From an uncultured Bacteroidales bacterium (GTDB taxonomy: Bacteria > Bacteroidota > Bacteroidia > Bacteroidales > Bacteroidaceae): 6,767 nt of DNA. Location: the NCBI GenBank assembly GCA_937896105.1, contig CALBKR010000175.1:1-6767 (forward strand), given 5' to 3'. Every line of letters begins with the position of its first letter. Position 1 is the first letter of the stretch. The notes under the pieces are model-generated. The model did not search any database, had not been told where the DNA came from, and saw nothing but the letters and a program-made list of their open reading frames with translations. Positions 500 through 6,767 of the stretch are shown in pieces. Position numbers and translations under genes: made by a program.

Positions 500-2404
500 A
501 TGAAATATCGCGAAATCCTTAAAAGGTATTGGGGCTATGACGATTTTCGTGGCATACAGCGCGATATAATCGAAAGCATAGGCCGGGGGCAGGACACCCT
601 CGGCCTTATGCCTACCGGTGGCGGAAAGAGTATCACCTTCCAGGTGCCCACGCTTGCCGGTGAGGGGCTGTGCATCGTTGTCACACCGCTGATAGCACTT
701 ATGAAAGACCAGGTAGCAAACCTTCGTAGCCGTGGCATCAAGGCATTGGCTATATACACCGGTATGAAGACAAGCGAGGTGGTCACAGCGCTCGAGAACT
801 GCATCTTCGGTGACTATAAATTCCTCTACATATCACCCGAGCGCATCGGTTCAGAACTTTTTCTAAAGAAGATAAGGCGTGTCAATGTCACTATGATAAC
901 GGTCGACGAGGCGCACTGTATATCGCAGTGGGGGCACGATTTCCGCCCGGCCTACAGGCGCATAGCCGAGTTGCGCGATATCTTCCCCACGGCTCCGCTG
1001 CTTGCACTCACCGCTACGGCTACTCCCGAGGTGGTCGAGGATATACAGCAGCAGCTCAATTTCCGCGAGCGGAACTGCTACAGGATGAGTTTCGCGCGCA
1101 CGAACCTCGCCTATGTGGTGCGTCACACCGAGAACAAGGCAAGTGAGCTGCTTCACATCCTCGGTCGTGTAGACGGCTCTGCGATAATATACACCCAGAA
1201 CCGCAAGAAAACCAAGGAAGTGTGCGATTTCCTAACGGCCAACGGCATCACAGCCGAGTATTACCACGCAGGCCTCTCGCCCGATAGCAAGGATGCCAAG
1301 GAAGATGCGTGGAAAAGCGGTCGCGCCCGTGTTATGGTCTCCACCAACGCCTTCGGGATGGGTATCGACAAACCCGATGTCCGTCTGGTGGTGCACATCG
1401 ACCTGCCAAGTTCCATCGAGGCCTATTTCCAGGAGGCAGGCCGTGCCGGCCGCGACGGCGAGAAGGCCTATGCCGTGACACTCTTCAGCCGCATCGACAA
1501 GCAGACAGTGTCGCGTCGTCTCTCCGACAACTACCCCCCTCAGGATTTTATCCGTGATATATACGATGAGCTCTGCTACTACTACAATATGGCATTGGGG
1601 GATGGTCTTGACTGCACCTTCGAGTTCTCGTTGGGCGATTTCTGCAAGAAATATCACCGTCCCACGTTGCAGACAGACAGTGCACTGCGCCTGCTCACCC
1701 GAATGGGCTACATCGAATATGTCGAGGAGATGGAGTACTCCTCGCGTGTGCGTTTCATTGTCGACAAGGATGCCCTCTACCGCTTCAAGGGCTTGCCTGC
1801 CGATTACGAACTGCTCATCAATGCCATACTGCGCAACTATAGCGGTCTTTTCACCGATTACGCCTTTATCGACGAGCGCTACCTCTCGCGCATAACCAAG
1901 CTGTCGCGCCACCGTATGTACGAGATTCTCGTCTCGCTGCACAGCAAGCGTCTTGTGCAGTATGCCCCGTCGAAGAAGTGCCCTATAATAACCTTTACGC
2001 GCCATCGAGTGCTTGGCAGCGAGCTTCGTTTCGAGCGTACGGTCTACGACGAGCGCCGTGCAGTCTTCGGAGACAGGCTCAACTCCATAATAAGCTACGC
2101 CACATCAACAGGCCGCTGCCGCAGTGCAATGCTCCTCGACTATTTTGGCGAGAAGGGCTCTGCCCCCTGTGGCTGTTGCGATGTGTGTGCCGGCGAACGT
2201 GCGAAGAATAGCTCTTCGCTACCATTGCCGGTCGATGCGCTTATGCAGCTGCTTGCCGACGGCAAGCAGCACGCGCTCTCCGAGCTCGAAGCCCTCGGGC
2301 TGCAAAGCGCCACCCTTAAAGCCCTGTTGCGGGAGATGTGCGACGAAGAGCGCATAGCTATCAACGGCGACAGGATAACCCTGAAACAAAACACATTGCT
2401 ATGA
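500..2404 (+). CDS. recQ: RecQ-family ATP-dependent DNA helicase with displaced zinc module
   Basis: This 634-residue superfamily 2 helicase unwinds DNA 3'-5' using ATP. All core motifs are present: motif 0 around F16-Q20, Walker A PTGGGKS (38-44, K43), DEAH box (136-139) followed by the aromatic-rich loop ending WGHDFRP (144-150), motif III TATAT (171-175), motif IV near 228-241, motif V STNAFGMGIDKPD (281-293) and motif VI QEAGRAGRDG (311-320). A four-cysteine zinc site with the spacing of E. coli RecQ (C540-x16-C557-x2-C560-x2-C563, with LLDYFGE in the same place) is intact. It sits some 150 residues further downstream than usual, because a winged-helix-like segment (about 345-520) lies between it and the core. 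The tail (575-634) looks like a short winged helix; no HRDC domain is seen. The ATG follows an AAAGG 3 bases away and is 6 bases after recJ, which fits joint end processing by RecQ and RecJ. Confidence 0.95.
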   Translation: MKYREILKRYWGYDDFRGIQRDIIESIGRGQDTLGLMPTGGGKSITFQVPTLAGEGLCIVVTPLIALMKDQVANLRSRGIKALAIYTGMKTSEVVTALENCIFGDYKFLYISPERIGSELFLKKIRRVNVTMITVDEAHCISQWGHDFRPAYRRIAELRDIFPTAPLLALTATATPEVVEDIQQQLNFRERNCYRMSFARTNLAYVVRHTENKASELLHILGRVDGSAIIYTQNRKKTKEVCDFLTANGITAEYYHAGLSPDSKDAKEDAWKSGRARVMVSTNAFGMGIDKPDVRLVVHIDLPSSIEAYFQEAGRAGRDGEKAYAVTLFSRIDKQTVSRRLSDNYPPQDFIRDIYDELCYYYNMALGDGLDCTFEFSLGDFCKKYHRPTLQTDSALRLLTRMGYIEYVEEMEYSSRVRFIVDKDALYRFKGLPADYELLINAILRNYSGLFTDYAFIDERYLSRITKLSRHRMYEILVSLHSKRLVQYAPSKKCPIITFTRHRVLGSELRFERTVYDERRAVFGDRLNSIISYATSTGRCRSAMLLDYFGEKGSAPCGCCDVCAGERAKNSSSLPLPVDALMQLLADGKQHALSELEALGLQSATLKALLREMCDEERIAINGDRITLKQNTLL

Positions 2405-3861
2405 TAACGTTCATTATATGCCTTGCAGTGCTTGTCACTGCCTACTTCACCTACGGGCGCTACCTCGAAAGGGTGTGCGGTATCGATGAGAAGAACCCCG
2501 TGCCATCGAAGACAATGTACGACGGTGTCGACTATATACCAATGCCGCGCTGGAGAGTGTTTCTCATCCAGCTGCTCAACATCGCCGGCCTCGGCCCCAT
2601 CTTCGGAGCACTCCTCGGTGCCGCGTACGGCCCTGTTGCCTTTCTGTGGATAACCCTTGGCGGTGTCTTTATGGGTGCGATGCACGACTTCATCGCCGGT
2701 GTGATATCGTTGAAGAACGGCGGTGTAAGCCTTCCCGAAATTGTCGGCACACACCTCGGCAACGGCACAAAACTCTTTATGCGCCTCTTCTCGTTGCTTC
2801 TTATGGTGCTTGTGGGTGCGGTGTTTATGTCGCAGCCAGCCGAGCTCATAGCATCGAATGTGTCGGCGCCATCGCTCGAGAGCACAGCCTTCGGCTCAAT
2901 GTCGTGGGAGCTGCTTGCGGTGCTTGCAGTGATACTTGCATATTACATCCTTGCCACACTGCTGCCCATTGACAAGATAATAGGGCGCATATATCCGCTA
3001 TTCGGCATCGCACTGCTGCTGATGGCAGTGAGCATCCTCTTCGTGCTTTTTACCAATAGCGACAAATATACTATCCCCGAACTCACATCGCTGGCCAATG
3101 GGATAGCCGACCCTGAAAAATTCCCCATCGTGCCGATGCTCTTCACAACCATAGCCTGTGGTGCCTTGTCGGGCTTCCACGCAACGCAGTCGCCTATGAT
3201 GGCACGTTGTATGACAAACGAGAAGCAGAGCCGCAGTGTCTTCTACGGCGCAATGATAACAGAGAGCATTGTTGCGCTCATCTGGGCAGCCATCGGAATG
3301 TCCTTCTGGGGCGGTGTCGAGGGGCTTAACAATGCCATTGCACTCAACGGAGGCAGTGCTGCAAAGCTTGTGGGCATAATAACCGATGCCACACTGAGCA
3401 ACTGGCTTGCAGCCTGCGTGCTTGTAGGCATCATCGGCTGTGCAATAACATCGGGCGATACAGCCTTCCGTTGTGCAAGGCTCATCGTAGCCGATATGTT
3501 CGGTATCGGGCAGAAAAAGCTAAGCAAGAGAATAGCTGTGTCAGTTCCTTTGTTCATAGCCGCACTCTTCATCATCTTCGCCCTGCCGTTCCAGACAATA
3601 TGGAGCTATTTCGCCTGGTGCAACCAGACTCTTGCCGTTATAACGCTATGGTGCATTACCGTCTACCTGTCGCAAAAGGGCAAGCCTGTTGTCATCAGCC
3701 TTCTGCCGGCACTGATAATGACATATGTCTGCTCATCGTATATCTTCATCTCGCCGATGATGTGTGGAATGGAGAACCGCACGTTGGCTTATATCCTTGG
3801 CGGAGTGCTGACGCTGGTTGTCGCGGTTGCAGTGCATTTCAGGGCAAAGAGCAAAGAGTAA
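2401..3861 (+). CDS. cstA: CstA-family carbon starvation / peptide-pyruvate transporter, short form
   Basis: This is a 486-residue polytopic inner-membrane protein. The segment 57-97 (QLLNIAGLGPIFGALLG, then GPVAFLWITLGGVF and GAMHDF) is the hallmark of CstA. Further conserved stretches are CGALSGFHATQSPMMAR (253-269), SGDTAFRCARLIVAD (351-365) and FAWCNQTLAVITLW (404-417). About a dozen hydrophobic helices can be picked out. Known family members take up peptides or pyruvate when carbon is short; the substrate here cannot be told. It is much shorter than E. coli CstA (about 700 residues), as is common in Bacteroidetes. The start at 2401 is chosen because MITFIICLAV begins the first helix and its ATG overlaps the recQ stop as ATGA, suggesting translational coupling; an upstream in-frame ATG at 2338 would add 21 polar residues. 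The last ~50 codons recur, diverged, at 5343-5505. Codons 433-441 are identical in both copies. Confidence 0.93.
   Translation: MITFIICLAVLVTAYFTYGRYLERVCGIDEKNPVPSKTMYDGVDYIPMPRWRVFLIQLLNIAGLGPIFGALLGAAYGPVAFLWITLGGVFMGAMHDFIAGVISLKNGGVSLPEIVGTHLGNGTKLFMRLFSLLLMVLVGAVFMSQPAELIASNVSAPSLESTAFGSMSWELLAVLAVILAYYILATLLPIDKIIGRIYPLFGIALLLMAVSILFVLFTNSDKYTIPELTSLANGIADPEKFPIVPMLFTTIACGALSGFHATQSPMMARCMTNEKQSRSVFYGAMITESIVALIWAAIGMSFWGGVEGLNNAIALNGGSAAKLVGIITDATLSNWLAACVLVGIIGCAITSGDTAFRCARLIVADMFGIGQKKLSKRIAVSVPLFIAALFIIFALPFQTIWSYFAWCNQTLAVITLWCITVYLSQKGKPVVISLLPALIMTYVCSSYIFISPMMCGMENRTLAYILGGVLTLVVAVAVHFRAKSKE
3696..3725 (+). repeat. 30-base direct repeat, left copy (inside cstA)
   Basis: This stretch within cstA (codons 433-442) is identical base for base to 5343-5372. 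It starts CAGCCTTCTGCC and ends ATGACATA. Directly after it the two copies diverge at about two of every five codons, so the identity ends abruptly. It could be the crossover core of an integration or a recombination track. The distance between copies is 1647 bases. Confidence 0.8.
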
Positions 3862-3901
3862 AGATGAAAGATGAAAGATGAAAGATGGAAGATGAAAGAG
3901 A
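3860..3901 (+). repeat. Heptamer tandem repeat (AAAGATG)n
   Basis: Five 7-base units run without a gap: AAAGATG four times, then GAAGATG. A partial sixth unit, AAAGAG, follows. The array begins in the last two bases of the cstA stop codon. It is A/G-rich on the + strand and holds no reading frame of note. Seven-base units are prone to slippage, so unit number may vary between strains. No function is evident. Confidence 0.85.
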
Positions 3902-3910
3902 TTTTTGACA

Positions 3911-3940
3911 GTGTCATACTGAGCGAAGCGAAGTATCTCT
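3911..3940. repeat. Palindromic intergenic element, copy 1 (GAGCGAAGCGA core)
   Basis: The unit begins TGTCATACT and has the core GAGCGAAGCGA (3921-3931). The core is enclosed by complementary arms ATACT (3916-3920) and AGTAT (3932-3936). It resembles the dispersed TGTCATTCTGAGCGAAGCGAAGAATCT-like intergenic repeats that I recall from many Bacteroidetes genomes; that resemblance is from memory and was not searched. A second version lies at 3990-4025 with different but again complementary arms. Confidence 0.6.
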
Positions 3941-3949
3941 AAAACATCT

Positions 3950-3980
3950 TTGTTATTTCTCCCTGCGGTCGAAATAACAA
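3950..3980. repeat. Inverted repeat, 10-base arms, between the two GAGCGAAGCGA elements
   Basis: TTGTTATTTC (3950-3959) is the exact reverse complement of GAAATAACAA (3971-3980), with an 11-base loop containing CCTGCGGTC. There is no T-run directly after either arm, so it is a poor match for an intrinsic terminator, although it is the first stable hairpin downstream of cstA. It may be part of the same composite repeat as its neighbours. Confidence 0.6.
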
Positions 3981-3989
3981 GTAACGGAC

Positions 3990-4025
3990 AATGTCATTCT
4001 CGACAGAGCGAAGCGACGAGAGAGC
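3990..4025. repeat. Palindromic intergenic element, copy 2 (GAGCGAAGCGA core)
   Basis: It begins TGTCATTCT like copy 1, carries the same 11-base core at 4006-4016 and has a CGACA insertion before it. Its arms are TCTCG (3998-4002) and CGAGA (4017-4021). They differ from those of copy 1 yet still pair, which points to a hairpin kept by compensating changes. Confidence 0.6.
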
Positions 4026-4041
4026 TGCAAACCTCTGTCAC

Positions 4042-4061
4042 TTTGTAACAATTGCTACAAA
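4042..4061. repeat. Near-perfect 20-base palindrome
   Basis: TTTGTA (4042-4047) pairs with TACAAA (4056-4061) around a central CAATTG palindrome, with only one mismatched pair. It could be a small hairpin or a binding site for a dimeric regulator. It lies roughly 130-150 bases upstream of the predicted lipoprotein-gene promoter, so a direct operator role is doubtful. Confidence 0.4.
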
Positions 4062-4077
4062 CAGTGCTCCTCCGTAG

Positions 4078-4097
4078 GGACACGGCGTGCCGTGTCC
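4078..4097. repeat. Palindromic repeat GGACACGGC-GT-GCCGTGTCC
   Basis: Two 9-base arms are exact reverse complements around a two-base centre, preceded by CCGTAG. GTAGGG-led palindromes of this kind are familiar as dispersed intergenic repeats in several phyla, by recollection and not by search. With the preceding elements it makes 3860-4100 a patchwork of repeats. The rest of the gene-free stretch up to 4259 is AT-rich and holds only the candidate promoter. Confidence 0.6.
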
Positions 4098-4188
4098 GCT
4101 GCCTGCAAGGGCTGAGGTATATGAATAAAACAATTATTGGCTTTAATAGGCTCTATAAGAACTTGGTGAAAAAAATAAACAGTATCTG

Positions 4189-4220
4189 ATTGTTTTGTTA
4201 GTTTAAACTTCATACATTCG
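4189..4220 (+). promoter_or_regulatory. Candidate Bacteroidetes-type promoter for the lipoprotein gene
   Basis: TACATTCG at 4213-4220 matches the Bacteroidetes -7 element TAnnTTTG except for one base. ATTG at 4189-4192 stands 20 bases before it, the right distance for the -33 TTTG element. Transcription would start near 4227, leaving a leader of about 33 bases before the ATG at 4260. The leader is AT-rich with no clear Shine-Dalgarno site, which is normal in this phylum. The match is suggestive only; a TTTG at 4194-4197 would be too close. Confidence 0.35.
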
Positions 4221-4259
4221 CGAAGATAACTTAAATTAACAAATTAATTCAGGTAAATT

Positions 4260-5195
4260 ATGAAAAGGCATTTCTCACTTCTTTTAGGACTTGTTGTCGC
4301 TTTTTCGACACTTCTTGTCTCTTGTGACGAAAACGATAATGAGATGGATTCTCCTATTTGCGAAATTGTTGTTGAGTGTGATGGCAATGGCAAGGTTGCG
4401 ATTACCAACCACGTCGGTTCAGTGGTGACCATACTTAAAGGAAACAGCCTTGAGGTTGTGGCAACCCCCGACGAGGGTTATGAGTTTGTCGGTTGGTTCG
4501 TTGGTGACGATGCTACACCTGTGAGCACGGATGCAACCTATACATTCGTTGTCAGCAGGAGTGTTGTGCTGGTGGCGAAATTTACTTATCCGTTCGTGTC
4601 AAGCGGCAGGGTAGACGGGCATGAGTATGTCGATTTGGGCTTGCCAAGTGGTCTTAAATGGGCAACCTGCAATGTCGGTGCAACAGAAATCTATGATAAA
4701 GGAGTGCATTACGCATGGGGTGAAACCGAAGAAAAAACCAATTTTACAAAATGGGAAAACTATCGGTTGTGTAATGGAACGGATGAATATATGACAAGAT
4801 ATAATGGGCACGACGACAAGAAAACTCTTGACATGGCGGATGATGTTGCCCACAGTGAATGGGGTGGCGACTGGCGCATGCCTACAAAAGCAGAAATGCA
4901 GGAACTTTGTGACAACTGTACTTTTGAAAGCGTGAAAGTAAACGGTATGCTTGGCCTCAAGGTCAAAGGTCCTAACGGCAGATGCCTATTCCTCCCTGCT
5001 GCGTCATATAAAGGAAGCACGGGTAATGTCCTGCTTGGTTGGATGTGCTATTGGTCAAGTACAGTTTCCCCCGATGACTATGCCTATGCATGTAGTCTGG
5101 AAATGTTTATCGGCAGTCCCGGTCAATCATATGCTCCAAATGTAAAAACAGCCATGCGCCGTTTGGGTTATTCAATACGCCCTGTGGCCGAGTAA
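4260..5195 (+). CDS. Surface lipoprotein with InlB-like repeat and FISUMP (Fib_succ_major) domain
   Basis: The 311-residue product starts with a lipoprotein signal peptide: MKRH, a hydrophobic run (5-20) and lipobox LVSC with C22 as the lipidated cysteine. The acidic stretch after it (DENDNE) resembles the export signal that sends Bacteroidetes lipoproteins to the outer surface. Residues about 35-110 (ending in VVLVAKF, with DEGYEFVGWF at 71-80) fit a divergent InlB B-repeat, a small beta domain. From 119 to the end runs a FISUMP domain: GHEYVDLGLPSGLKWATCNVGA region (120-141), YAWGE (151-155), WGGDWRMPTKAEMQEL (201-216), YWSST (264-268) and a final SIRPV. This domain is common and often multi-copy in Bacteroidetes; its biochemical role is not established, and adhesion or glycan contact is only a guess. 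It is a single-gene unit, closed by the terminator at 5212-5253. Base composition is less GC-rich than the cstA side. Confidence 0.9.
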   Translation: MKRHFSLLLGLVVAFSTLLVSCDENDNEMDSPICEIVVECDGNGKVAITNHVGSVVTILKGNSLEVVATPDEGYEFVGWFVGDDATPVSTDATYTFVVSRSVVLVAKFTYPFVSSGRVDGHEYVDLGLPSGLKWATCNVGATEIYDKGVHYAWGETEEKTNFTKWENYRLCNGTDEYMTRYNGHDDKKTLDMADDVAHSEWGGDWRMPTKAEMQELCDNCTFESVKVNGMLGLKVKGPNGRCLFLPAASYKGSTGNVLLGWMCYWSSTVSPDDYAYACSLEMFIGSPGQSYAPNVKTAMRRLGYSIRPVAE

Positions 5196-5211
5196 GGTAA
5201 CAGAGAAACAT

Positions 5212-5253
5212 AAAAAAGACATCAACTTCAAATTTGAAGTTGATGTCTTTTTT
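5212..5253. terminator. Bidirectional intrinsic terminator, 42-base perfect palindrome
   Basis: A6 plus GACATCAACTTCAAA (5212-5232) is mirrored exactly by its reverse complement, ending in T6 (5233-5253). In RNA this makes a long stem with a U-tract on either strand. It serves the lipoprotein gene from the left and would serve the - strand gene whose remnant ends at 5269 from the right. The centre AAATTT must open to form the loop. Confidence 0.9.
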
Positions 5254-5268
5254 ATTGTTGAAGTGTAA

Positions 5269-5342
5269 TTACTTGCGCATTTTCTCGGCCTCCTTGTTCT
5301 GCTTTGCAATCTTCTTGGCCTGGCTCTTTGCAGCTTTTTCAG
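5269..5342 (-). pseudogene. Truncated C-terminal tail of an unknown Lys/Ala-rich protein
   Basis: Read on the - strand, this encodes about 24 residues ending in KKIAKQNKEAEKMRK before a TAA at 5271-5269. It is rich in Lys, Ala, Glu and Gln, as in a basic helical or coiled-coil tail, and the terminator at 5212-5253 sits where such a gene's terminator should be. Upstream of about 5343 the frame runs into the reverse complement of cstA tail sequence, so the 5' part of the gene is missing. The frame stays open to an ATG at 5484, giving a 71-residue chimera; I regard that N-terminal part as meaningless antisense of cstA. The parent protein is not recognised. Confidence 0.5.
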
Positions 5343-5372
5343 CAGCCTTCTGCCGGCACTGATAATGACATA
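5343..5372 (+). repeat. 30-base direct repeat, right copy (start of cstA tail fragment)
   Basis: It is identical to 3696-3725 in cstA. Homology to cstA begins here: the base before it (5342) already differs, although 5339-5341 match again. The sequence to its left belongs to the Lys/Ala-rich remnant, so this is a junction between unrelated sequences. Confidence 0.8.
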
Positions 5373-5505
5373 CGTATGCTCTTCGTACATATTTATCTCC
5401 CCGATGATGTGCGGCATGGAGAACCGCATGCTGGCATATATCCTCGGCGGAGTGCTGACGCTGCTTGTCGCAGTTGCAATGCATTTCAGGGCAAGGAAAG
5501 GCTAA
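5343..5505 (+). pseudogene. cstA 3'-end fragment (second, diverged copy of the last ~50 codons)
   Basis: In frame, this encodes SLLPALIMTYVCSSY and onward to HFRARKG and a TAA at 5503-5505. It corresponds to residues 433-486 of the intact CstA at 2401-3861. After the identical 30 bases, 16 of the next 41 codons differ. Thirteen of these changes are silent; the others are T461M, V473L and V478M. The extreme C-termini also differ (RARKG against RAKSKE). That pattern shows it came from a copy that was under selection as protein, not from a recent duplication that decayed here. It has no start codon or 5' part of its own. A hairpin terminator follows 32 bases after its stop, as one would expect behind a native cstA. 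Confidence 0.9.
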
Positions 5506-5536
5506 GAGAGTAAGTGCGTGCTGCTTTTAAAATAGT

Positions 5537-5575
5537 AAAACCAACTTGAGGCAAAATTACAAGTTGGTTTTTCTT
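5537..5575. terminator. Intrinsic terminator, probably bidirectional
   Basis: AAAACCAACTTG (5537-5548) pairs exactly with CAAGTTGGTTTT (5560-5571) across an 11-base loop. On the + strand the stem runs into TTTTCTTTT, a good U-tract behind the cstA tail fragment. On the - strand it lies about 20 bases after the stop of the 75-residue gene, with a weaker T-rich run. Confidence 0.8.
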
Positions 5576-5593
5576 TTATATGAACAATGATAT

Positions 5594-5821
5594 TTATTTA
5601 ATTTTACTTGAATTAAATAGAATGTCACCTTCGTTGTTGAATAGTTTTATATTCGTAGCAATTATTCCTTCTTTTTTACCACATTCCTTTTCAATAATTG
5701 TTTCAACAATATTGTATGCAATAGAGGCATATGTAAAATTGTCGTTTTTTGCATTGTATGATTTATTGATATACGTGTAAGTTTGACCGTCGTAATCAAA
5801 TTGTATTGTAAATGTTTTCAT
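5594..5821 (-). CDS. Small protein of unknown function (75 residues)
   Basis: I do not recognise this protein. It starts MKTFTIQFDYDGQTYTYINK and has an alternating polar/hydrophobic N-terminal stretch suggestive of beta strands. A helical stretch follows around 32-48 (ASIAYNIVETIIEKE), then a second strand-like part (ATNIKLFNNEGDILF). It has no signal peptide or membrane segment, so it should be cytoplasmic, unlike the secreted protein encoded just upstream. The ATG is 8 bases after the stop of the LRR gene on the same strand, so the two are probably co-transcribed. It is AT-rich like its partner. An overlapping + strand frame (5580-5780) would give a hydrophobic, unconvincing product, so the - strand was preferred. 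Existence of the gene is likely but not certain. Confidence 0.6.
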   Translation of the reverse strand: MKTFTIQFDYDGQTYTYINKSYNAKNDNFTYASIAYNIVETIIEKECGKKEGIIATNIKLFNNEGDILFNSSKIK

Positions 5822-5829
5822 GCAAATAT

Positions 5830-6767
5830 TTATAGTTTGATTTTTAAAGTTTTATTCTCAATACTTATTATGTATATTCCGTTTTCAAGATAAAATGCTT
5901 CTCCCATATAATTTTCGATTTTCTCTATAAGTTTGCCATTTACAGAATAAATACTAATGGTTTTGTGTTGAACTCCTTCTAATAAAATACTATTACAGGT
6001 CTTTTTTATTGTAATGTTTTCAGGCTTTATATTCATAACTTCAGTTATGTTGAATTCCTGAATGTCCCAAAATAAACTCCACCCATTGGTTGTTTGGTAC
6101 GTGGCAAGAGAACCAAGTGGTACATAAAGAGTTGCGTTTATATAAGTCTTATTTGAAAAAACATTCTCAGGAATATTGGAAGGAGCTGGAGCTAATGCAT
6201 AAACGCTTGTAAGCCCCGTGCAATTTTCGAACGCTCCACTTCCAATGCTTGTAACGCTGTTAGGTATTGTAATGCTTGTAAGCCCTGTGCAACCATAGAA
6301 CGCTTTATTTCCAATAATATAATTTTCACCATTATAGTCAGTCGGCAAGGTTAATTCAGTATCGTTGCCAATATATGCAACCAACGTATTTACAGCATTT
6401 GGTTTTCCAAATACATAGTCTCCCTCTATTGAACCATTTGGTGCATTAATTACTTTGCCGGCATAATATGCAATATACCCATTGTCTTTTGAACCCTTAA
6501 TGAATGTAAAATTTGATAAATTTATAACTGTATAAAGGTTTCTGCAACCGTCGAACGCATCGTCTTCAATGTTTATTACGCTGTTGCCGATTATAACTGT
6601 TTCAATATATGTAAAGCCGTTAGACCAACAACGGTCAACCCTGGGACAATTGAGTTCAACCCTCTTTAGCCCGGTGCAACCACTGAACGCATAATATCCA
6701 ATGCTTGTCACGCTGTTAGGGATTGTTATGCTTGTAAGTCCGGAGCAACCTTCGAACGCTCCAAGTT
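5830..6767 (-). CDS. BspA-like leucine-rich-repeat surface protein with T9SS sorting tail (N-terminus outside window)
   Basis: The frame is open to the window edge and gives the last 311 residues. It contains BspA/LRR_5 repeats of the type AF.GCTGLTSITIPNSVTSIG: clear units begin at fragment residues about 3, 26, 70, 155 and 178, with degenerate ones between. After the repeats comes the usual VPLGSLATYQ..NGW segment (about 215-229). The final 62 residues (about 250-311), with ISIYSVNGKLIEKI, LENGIYIISI and a basic end KTLKIKL, match a type A T9SS C-terminal sorting domain. The protein is therefore expected to cross the outer membrane by T9SS and be anchored or released, a common arrangement for adhesin-like BspA proteins. 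The GTG at 6711 is not the start: the repeat pattern continues unbroken upstream. It is strongly AT-rich compared with the left half of the window. Confidence 0.9.
   Translation of the reverse strand, partial: LGAFEGCSGLTSITIPNSVTSIGYYAFSGCTGLKRVELNCPRVDRCWSNGFTYIETVIIGNSVINIEDDAFDGCRNLYTVINLSNFTFIKGSKDNGYIAYYAGKVINAPNGSIEGDYVFGKPNAVNTLVAYIGNDTELTLPTDYNGENYIIGNKAFYGCTGLTSITIPNSVTSIGSGAFENCTGLTSVYALAPAPSNIPENVFSNKTYINATLYVPLGSLATYQTTNGWSLFWDIQEFNITEVMNIKPENITIKKTCNSILLEGVQHKTISIYSVNGKLIEKIENYMGEAFYLENGIYIISIENKTLKIKL
6242..6294 (-). repeat. LRR-coding DNA repeat, matching 6698-6750
   Basis: These 53 bases encode one LRR unit (GCTGLTSITIPNSVTSIG) and differ from 6698-6750 at only 6 positions, 456 bases away in the same gene. 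Such closeness suggests recent unit duplication or gene conversion and offers a substrate for repeat-number change by recombination. Confidence 0.75.
6698..6750 (-). repeat. LRR-coding DNA repeat, matching 6242-6294
   Basis: This partner of the repeat at 6242-6294 encodes the unit GCSGLTSITIPNSVTSIG. The six base differences produce one amino-acid change (Thr to Ser in GCxG). Confidence 0.75.

Follow-up and report, generated by a model that had tools for sequence, protein, structure and literature searches.

The window analysed here is the whole of one contig, 6767 nt long, from an uncultured member of the Bacteroidaceae. recJ is represented by its 3′ end and followed by recQ and cstA; behind cstA come a lipoprotein gene, the remnant of a gene that we call KAAG, another cstA tail with a hairpin after it, an ORF of 75 aa and a leucine-rich-repeat (LRR) gene (Table 1). 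The lipoprotein gene had been labelled FISUMP in the initial annotation; Pfam instead identifies an InlB-type B-repeat and a sub-threshold Lcl_C match, and NCBIfam gives nothing at E 1e-3. Scans of the window for tRNAs and Rfam families (gathering thresholds) gave no matches. The stretch 3912–4035 holds short dispersed intergenic repeats, among them a 29-nt family found at seven places in the genome of one relative (G004). For comparison we used 80 cstA loci, out of 182 confirmed stretches, which come mostly from Bacteroidaceae and Alistipes genomes from gut metagenomes (loci are numbered L, related proteins P).

Table 1. Features of the window, with the evidence for each
Feature	Position	Strand	Evidence
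Intact cstA, 486 aa, CstA family	2401..3861	+	Pfam PF02554; recJ-recQ-cstA stretch aligns across the 11 loci of the comparison
Left (in-gene) cstA tail, allele ending AKSKE	3696..3861	+	Repeat comparison; AKSKE also found in P0018; P0013 and P0014 carry it extended by 9 residues
Low-complexity run and short dispersed intergenic repeats	3862..4110		Pieces of 3896–4110 match sites in 12 of 44 genus genomes (E ≤ 1e-6)
Lipoprotein gene, InlB-type B-repeat, sub-threshold Lcl_C	4260..5195	+	Pfam; 89% identical gene in the same place in L021
Palindrome of 23 + 23 bp, terminator-like, between lipoprotein gene and KAAG remnant	5210..5255		Similar palindrome before KAAG in L004, L008, L012, L059 and L021
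Remnant of KAAG 3′ end, about 26 codons, Ala/Lys/Gly-repeat protein	5269..5349	-	DNA matches to L004, L008, L012, L021, L059 and L016
Junction, CAGCCTT common to KAAG genes and cstA	5343..5349		Sequence comparison; related joint in P0002
Right, detached cstA tail, allele ending ARKG, remnant	5343..5505	+	Repeat; intact protein P0022 has the same tail but for one residue
Hairpin region E, directly 3′ of the cstA stop	5506..5580	+	100% identity 3′ of cstA in L010 and L013 and, for its first 37 nt, in L001; RNA fold
75-aa ORF in E, without a Pfam family	5594..5821	-	10 proteins at E ≤ 0.01
BspA-type LRR protein gene, truncated by contig end	5830..6767	-	Pfam LRR_5; sub-threshold T9SS sorting tail

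The repeated cstA tail

The initial annotation had described the 3′ end of cstA as present twice, 1647 bases apart, and its coordinates and codon counts proved exact. The direct repeat (3689–3850 and 5336–5497) is 162 nt long and 88% identical at this spacing, and an E value of 2.4e-55 in a self-BLAST excludes chance. Base by base, 3696–3850 and 5343–5497 agree at 138 of 155 positions. The longest identical run, 30 nt, lies at the start of the tails (3696–3725). Between 3724 and 3846, 16 of the 41 codons differ, 13 of them silently and 3 with a replacement. If the 17 differing codons fell randomly among 51, nine identical leading codons would have a probability of about 0.02.

The 30-nt block was considered as a conserved crossover core and rejected, because it is not conserved between species. 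Each of the 31 aligned relatives has 6–12 mismatches to it, and the block shifted by one base gives the same range. As this holds for every relative, both window tails look like the cstA of one species. The 30 identical bases are better explained as the end of a cstA body that is shared and species-specific, not as a crossover core, and the alignments support the suggestion that the window tails are alternative ends of the cstA of one species. Trees of the two tails had been proposed earlier; the tree of the 147-nt tails is mostly unresolved and shows no more than that the window tails are nearest each other by path. Nine distant loci were left out of the trees; that of the cstA body has 23 rows.

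The initial annotation had also placed a terminator after the right-hand copy and none after the left, for which there is modest support. The region 5520–5590 folds (−14.2 kcal/mol, z −2.0, with 9 of 200 shuffles as good) and is not flagged by a consensus terminator scan; 3862–3990 has no excess structure (z −0.2). The strongest palindrome of the window is that between the lipoprotein gene and the KAAG remnant (z −8.5), which the scan flags on the minus strand.

The joint between KAAG and the second tail

At 3696 cstA is uninterrupted. The visible break is at 5343–5349, where KAAG is cut and cstA sequence resumes. KAAG is a minus-strand gene rich in Ala, Lys and Gly, with ORFs of 219 aa in L021 and 221 aa in L004; the C-terminus of the 219-aa product matches window 5269–5343. 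The word common to KAAG and cstA at the joint is CAGCCTT, 7 nt, extending to as many as 9 nt (CAGCCTTCT). In the KAAG stretches (660–666 nt) of L021, L004, L012 and L008, CAGCCTT occurs 15, 14, 11 and 10 times and CAGCCTTCT occurs 4, 6, 4 and 2 times respectively. To judge from these relatives, the KAAG parent in the species of the window presumably shared the word.

An antisense ORF of 71 aa runs across the joint, and a search for fusion proteins returned a full-length match to it only from the window's own contig. The 40-aa protein P0002, from a contig of 635 nt, reads MYDEQTYVIISAGR and then KAAEKAAKSQAKKIAKQNKEAEKMRK; it is the antisense of a cstA tail joined to the C-terminus of KAAG. Its tail type is unlike either tail of the window, and its residues and frame imply one base more at the joint than in the window. 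None of the 80 loci has a second cstA tail downstream of cstA (in 66 of them the sequence continues for 1.65 kb or more beyond the gene), and no match bridges the joint in 44 genus genomes, with at most nine candidates scored per genome. The joint is therefore rare. The same boundary, which the initial annotation had proposed to look for in other genomes, was thus absent from these loci and genomes; P0002 is an exception at the protein level. Tandem full-length cstA genes, which it had weighed against its own reading, were likewise seen at none of the loci.

Variation at and behind the cstA 3′ end

Among the best 120 of 2842 CstA proteins are 17 (P0013–P0029) that are 97–99% identical to that of the window and, at this level of identity, probably belong to the same species. 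P0013, P0016, P0019 and P0022 have an identical 432-residue body followed by four different tails, one of them of the right-copy type. This is P0022 (one contig of 1869 nt), which has three differences from the window in the body and one from the right-hand tail, so that the main prediction of the initial annotation, an intact CstA ending in the right-hand version, is borne out at the protein level. For the long AKSKE-type P0013 there are 14 contigs, for the ARKG-type P0019 there are 11.

The mean difference among 18 proteins (that of the window and P0013–P0029; P0030, at 96%, was left out) is 0.2–2.9% in segments of residues 1–457, 4.5% at 458–470 and 13.1% at 471–483, gaps excluded; P0017, P0026 and P0027 have no residue count in the comparison of body and tail. 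The C-terminus of cstA is also its most variable part between species (39.5% at 471–483), so part of the variety of tails may be ordinary drift. However, the ratio of within-species to between-species difference rises there too, from 0.01–0.11 over residues 1–457 to 0.55 at 458–470 and 0.33 at 471–483, which makes replacement likelier than drift as the cause of what appears to be a polymorphic cstA 3′ end within the species of the window. In P0032 a diverged body is followed by a 3′ part like that of the window. The cstA of L010 contains a 133-nt run identical to the window, from alignment column 562, and is elsewhere about 67–81% identical per 150 columns. This run would be either a conversion tract or an assembly patch, and together with P0032 it points either to real exchanges or to shared assembly faults. 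The four tails on one body, the L010 tract and the P0032 mosaic, observations at one gene and mostly at the protein level, would be in keeping with an excess of recombination in the core gene that flanks the variable region.

The region behind cstA is variable, as in a hotspot beside a core gene: it contains KAAG, the lipoprotein gene and KAAG, E or the sequence D described below, or neither before an oxidoreductase gene. In L021, cstA is followed by the lipoprotein gene and minus-strand KAAG, which is the order in the window before the joint. KAAG directly follows cstA in L004, L008 and L012 and lies about 1.5 kb after it in L059; in L016 a DNA match places it behind cstA at the contig end. 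The gene next after cstA in many relatives, which we take to be an oxidoreductase of the Gfo/Idh/MocA type, is downstream of cstA in 29 of 49 tabulated loci (query from L021), on the minus strand in 13 and on the plus strand in 16.

Sequence from 5506 onward is found 100% identical behind intact cstA in L010 (185 nt), L013 (116 nt) and L001 (37 nt). The initial annotation had proposed to look for an intact cstA running straight into 5506–5580; this arrangement exists in L010 and L013, and for the first 37 nt in L001, but in other species. The identity of the E flank extends into cstA by only 12, 16 and 9 bases in L010, L013 and L001 respectively, and the recJ-cstA stretch of these loci is 74–76% identical to that of the window. 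Such a contrast argues that the flank moved between species recently. In 301 genomes of the family, with two candidates scored in each, strong matches to E came only from the genomes of L013 and L001, and weak short ones from seven more. P0085 (a CstA, 80%) and P0005 (a homologue of the E ORF, 81%) are each encoded on a contig of 48,103 nt, probably the same one; in some lineage E may thus have stood beside cstA for a long time. Phage and plasmid records gave no megablast match to 5196–6767, and two exact patterns had no occurrence in viral contigs.

The lipoprotein-KAAG part of the window is 86% identical to L021 over 1176 nt, compared with 78% for the recJ-cstA stretch. In the tree of the cstA body the window groups with L014, L011 and L028 (99/99), apart from the KAAG carriers. 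The left tail is not L021-like (81% to L021, 89% to L013). E has perfect matches in other species, and the lipoprotein part resembles L021 more closely than the backbone does; either half may therefore be a recent import. Of the earlier proposal that 3696–5342 arrived as a unit, an import of the lipoprotein-KAAG part is accordingly possible on the strength of these identities and the tree; the att-like scar that formed part of it is not supported.

Sequence D, with a minus-strand gene of 420 aa, is 98–100% identical between five genomes of the genus wherever they share it (L001:11496-12635, L010:5920-6060, L013:11573-11713, L126:6555-7695 and L127:8846-9824). The gene has no NCBIfam match; its product may be PCMD-like. 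L001, L010 and L013 each join D to E at a different point, and in L126 and L127 D has pieces of LRR genes next to it; we take D to have spread recently, with variable left ends. The contigs of L010 (5920–6060) and L013 (11573–11713) both end after exactly 141 nt of D. This is the largest default k of MEGAHIT, and the ends look like assembler k-mer overlap, in which case D would be a branching repeat in the assembly graphs of L010 and L013. Upstream of D in L126 (30–6119, genome G324) is a run of minus-strand genes that, judged by eye, resemble phage head and tail genes. P0012, found in four contigs, combines an LRR piece with the C-terminal portion of the E ORF (75 aa) and is apparently a deletion variant of the LRR-E region.

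Origin of the joint

We propose that the region behind cstA holds two haplotypes that became linked end to end through homology-assisted illegitimate recombination, a reading to which we give a probability of about 0.55. The species of the window would have at least two haplotypes at this variable locus. In haplotype 1 cstA would end AKSKE, with repeats, the lipoprotein gene and KAAG behind it in the window; in haplotype 2 it would end ARKG, the right-copy type, with hairpin E and the LRR gene behind it in the window. Incoming DNA of one haplotype would recombine homologously on one side: in cstA had haplotype 1 entered, downstream of the window had it been haplotype 2. A crossover in cstA would sit upstream of 3726. 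The illegitimate side would be joined at CAGCCTT. As a result cstA would keep an intact tail, KAAG would lose its 5′ part and the second tail would be left as an inert relic of 163 nt. What is observed is that intact CstA proteins of one body carry both tail types, that L021 has the gene order of haplotype 1, that E stands behind intact cstA in other species, and that the joint with its shared word has a related counterpart in a second contig. Either haplotype could have been the recipient; any dependence on RecA, the entry of the DNA and what follows each allele outside the window are inferred.

The initial annotation had interpreted the repeat as an attL/attR-like scar left by site-specific, integrase-mediated integration into the 3′ end of cstA. 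Where integrative elements replace the 3′ end of a gene, the gene stays whole with one of the tails and the other is displaced; the window has this geometry. In three other loci, too, E starts directly behind the cstA stop, and identity to the window reaches only 9–16 bases into the gene, which could look site-directed. Yet no integrase, att core or element ends were found at the window. As the initial annotation had itself noted, an integrase is missing from the segment: there is none among the seven window proteins (Pfam). Downstream in L021 none was seen either, where ORFs were read by eye and two were scanned with NCBIfam. The supposed left end at 3696 is uninterrupted cstA, followed by the same gene order in L021, and the right joint lies inside another gene, KAAG, at a repeated word of 7–9 nt. 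Other species lack the 30-nt block in this form, and no second tail occurs in the 80 loci. We regard a scar of this kind as highly improbable. Single-crossover integration or tandem duplication might instead have given two full cstA genes, from which a later deletion ran from KAAG to the second cstA at CAGCCTT. The final structure would be the same and the deletion joint would use the same shared word, but this route requires two steps and again leaves the lack of a second tail in the 80 loci against it; we consider it unlikely.

An assembly chimera, in which a cstA-lipoprotein-KAAG contig and a cstA tail-E-LRR contig of two strains were falsely joined at 5343, would fit a window that is a single whole contig and the only source of the full fusion ORF; 14 of the 80 related contigs end within 1.65 kb after cstA. 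The parents, however, share at most about 9 nt at the joint. This is shorter than the k-mers commonly used by assemblers and counts against a chimera. So does P0002: as a second contig has a related fusion that involves a different tail allele and differs by one base, a chance assembly error is less likely. On balance such a chimera seems quite unlikely. The recombination of two haplotypes is thus preferred, and the window joint is probably a real, rare recombination scar at a busy locus of gene exchange, ordinary in kind and instructive as an example, not a new element.

Homology-facilitated illegitimate recombination (HFIR) has been reported in the transformation of Streptococcus pneumoniae, Acinetobacter and Pseudomonas stutzeri, with joints at 3–10 nt of shared sequence (PMC6382021, PMC8504540). 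The window is alike in having one homologous anchor, presumed here, and a joint whose 7 nt (up to 9) fit this range. It differs in that HFIR has been reported from laboratory transformation, whereas our case is deduced from the DNA of an uncultured bacterium. Hotspots of gene turnover beside core genes, without an integrase and with recombination in the flanking core gene, are described in a study that tested species-wide rates (2017, PMC5635113). The locus resembles them in its turnover beside a core gene, the lack of a visible integrase and, possibly, recombination in the flanking core gene. Unlike the hotspots described there, the window retains an incomplete second copy of the core gene, which implies that the exchange was not cleanly homologous on one side; and the rates studied there are species-wide, whereas a single locus is treated here. 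A search of literature titles and abstract openings found no description of the cstA locus, which may nevertheless have been published.

More tentatively, and with considerable doubt, the cstA 3′ terminus could be a general, integrase-free docking point in this ruminant-gut genus of the Bacteroidaceae, at which cassettes of surface-protein genes are swapped within and between species through short-homology joints. The blunt or near-blunt and variously placed cassette joints (E to D in L001, L010 and L013; the LRR-E fusion P0012) would then suggest an end-joining-like process that repeatedly rebuilds the locus and is able to stack two haplotypes.

A duplicated 3′ gene end is not in itself proof of an att site. 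The window offers one concrete joint by which accessory surface genes can accumulate beside a core gene without a visible mobile element, and it suggests that the C-terminus of a core transporter may be swapped along with its neighbourhood.
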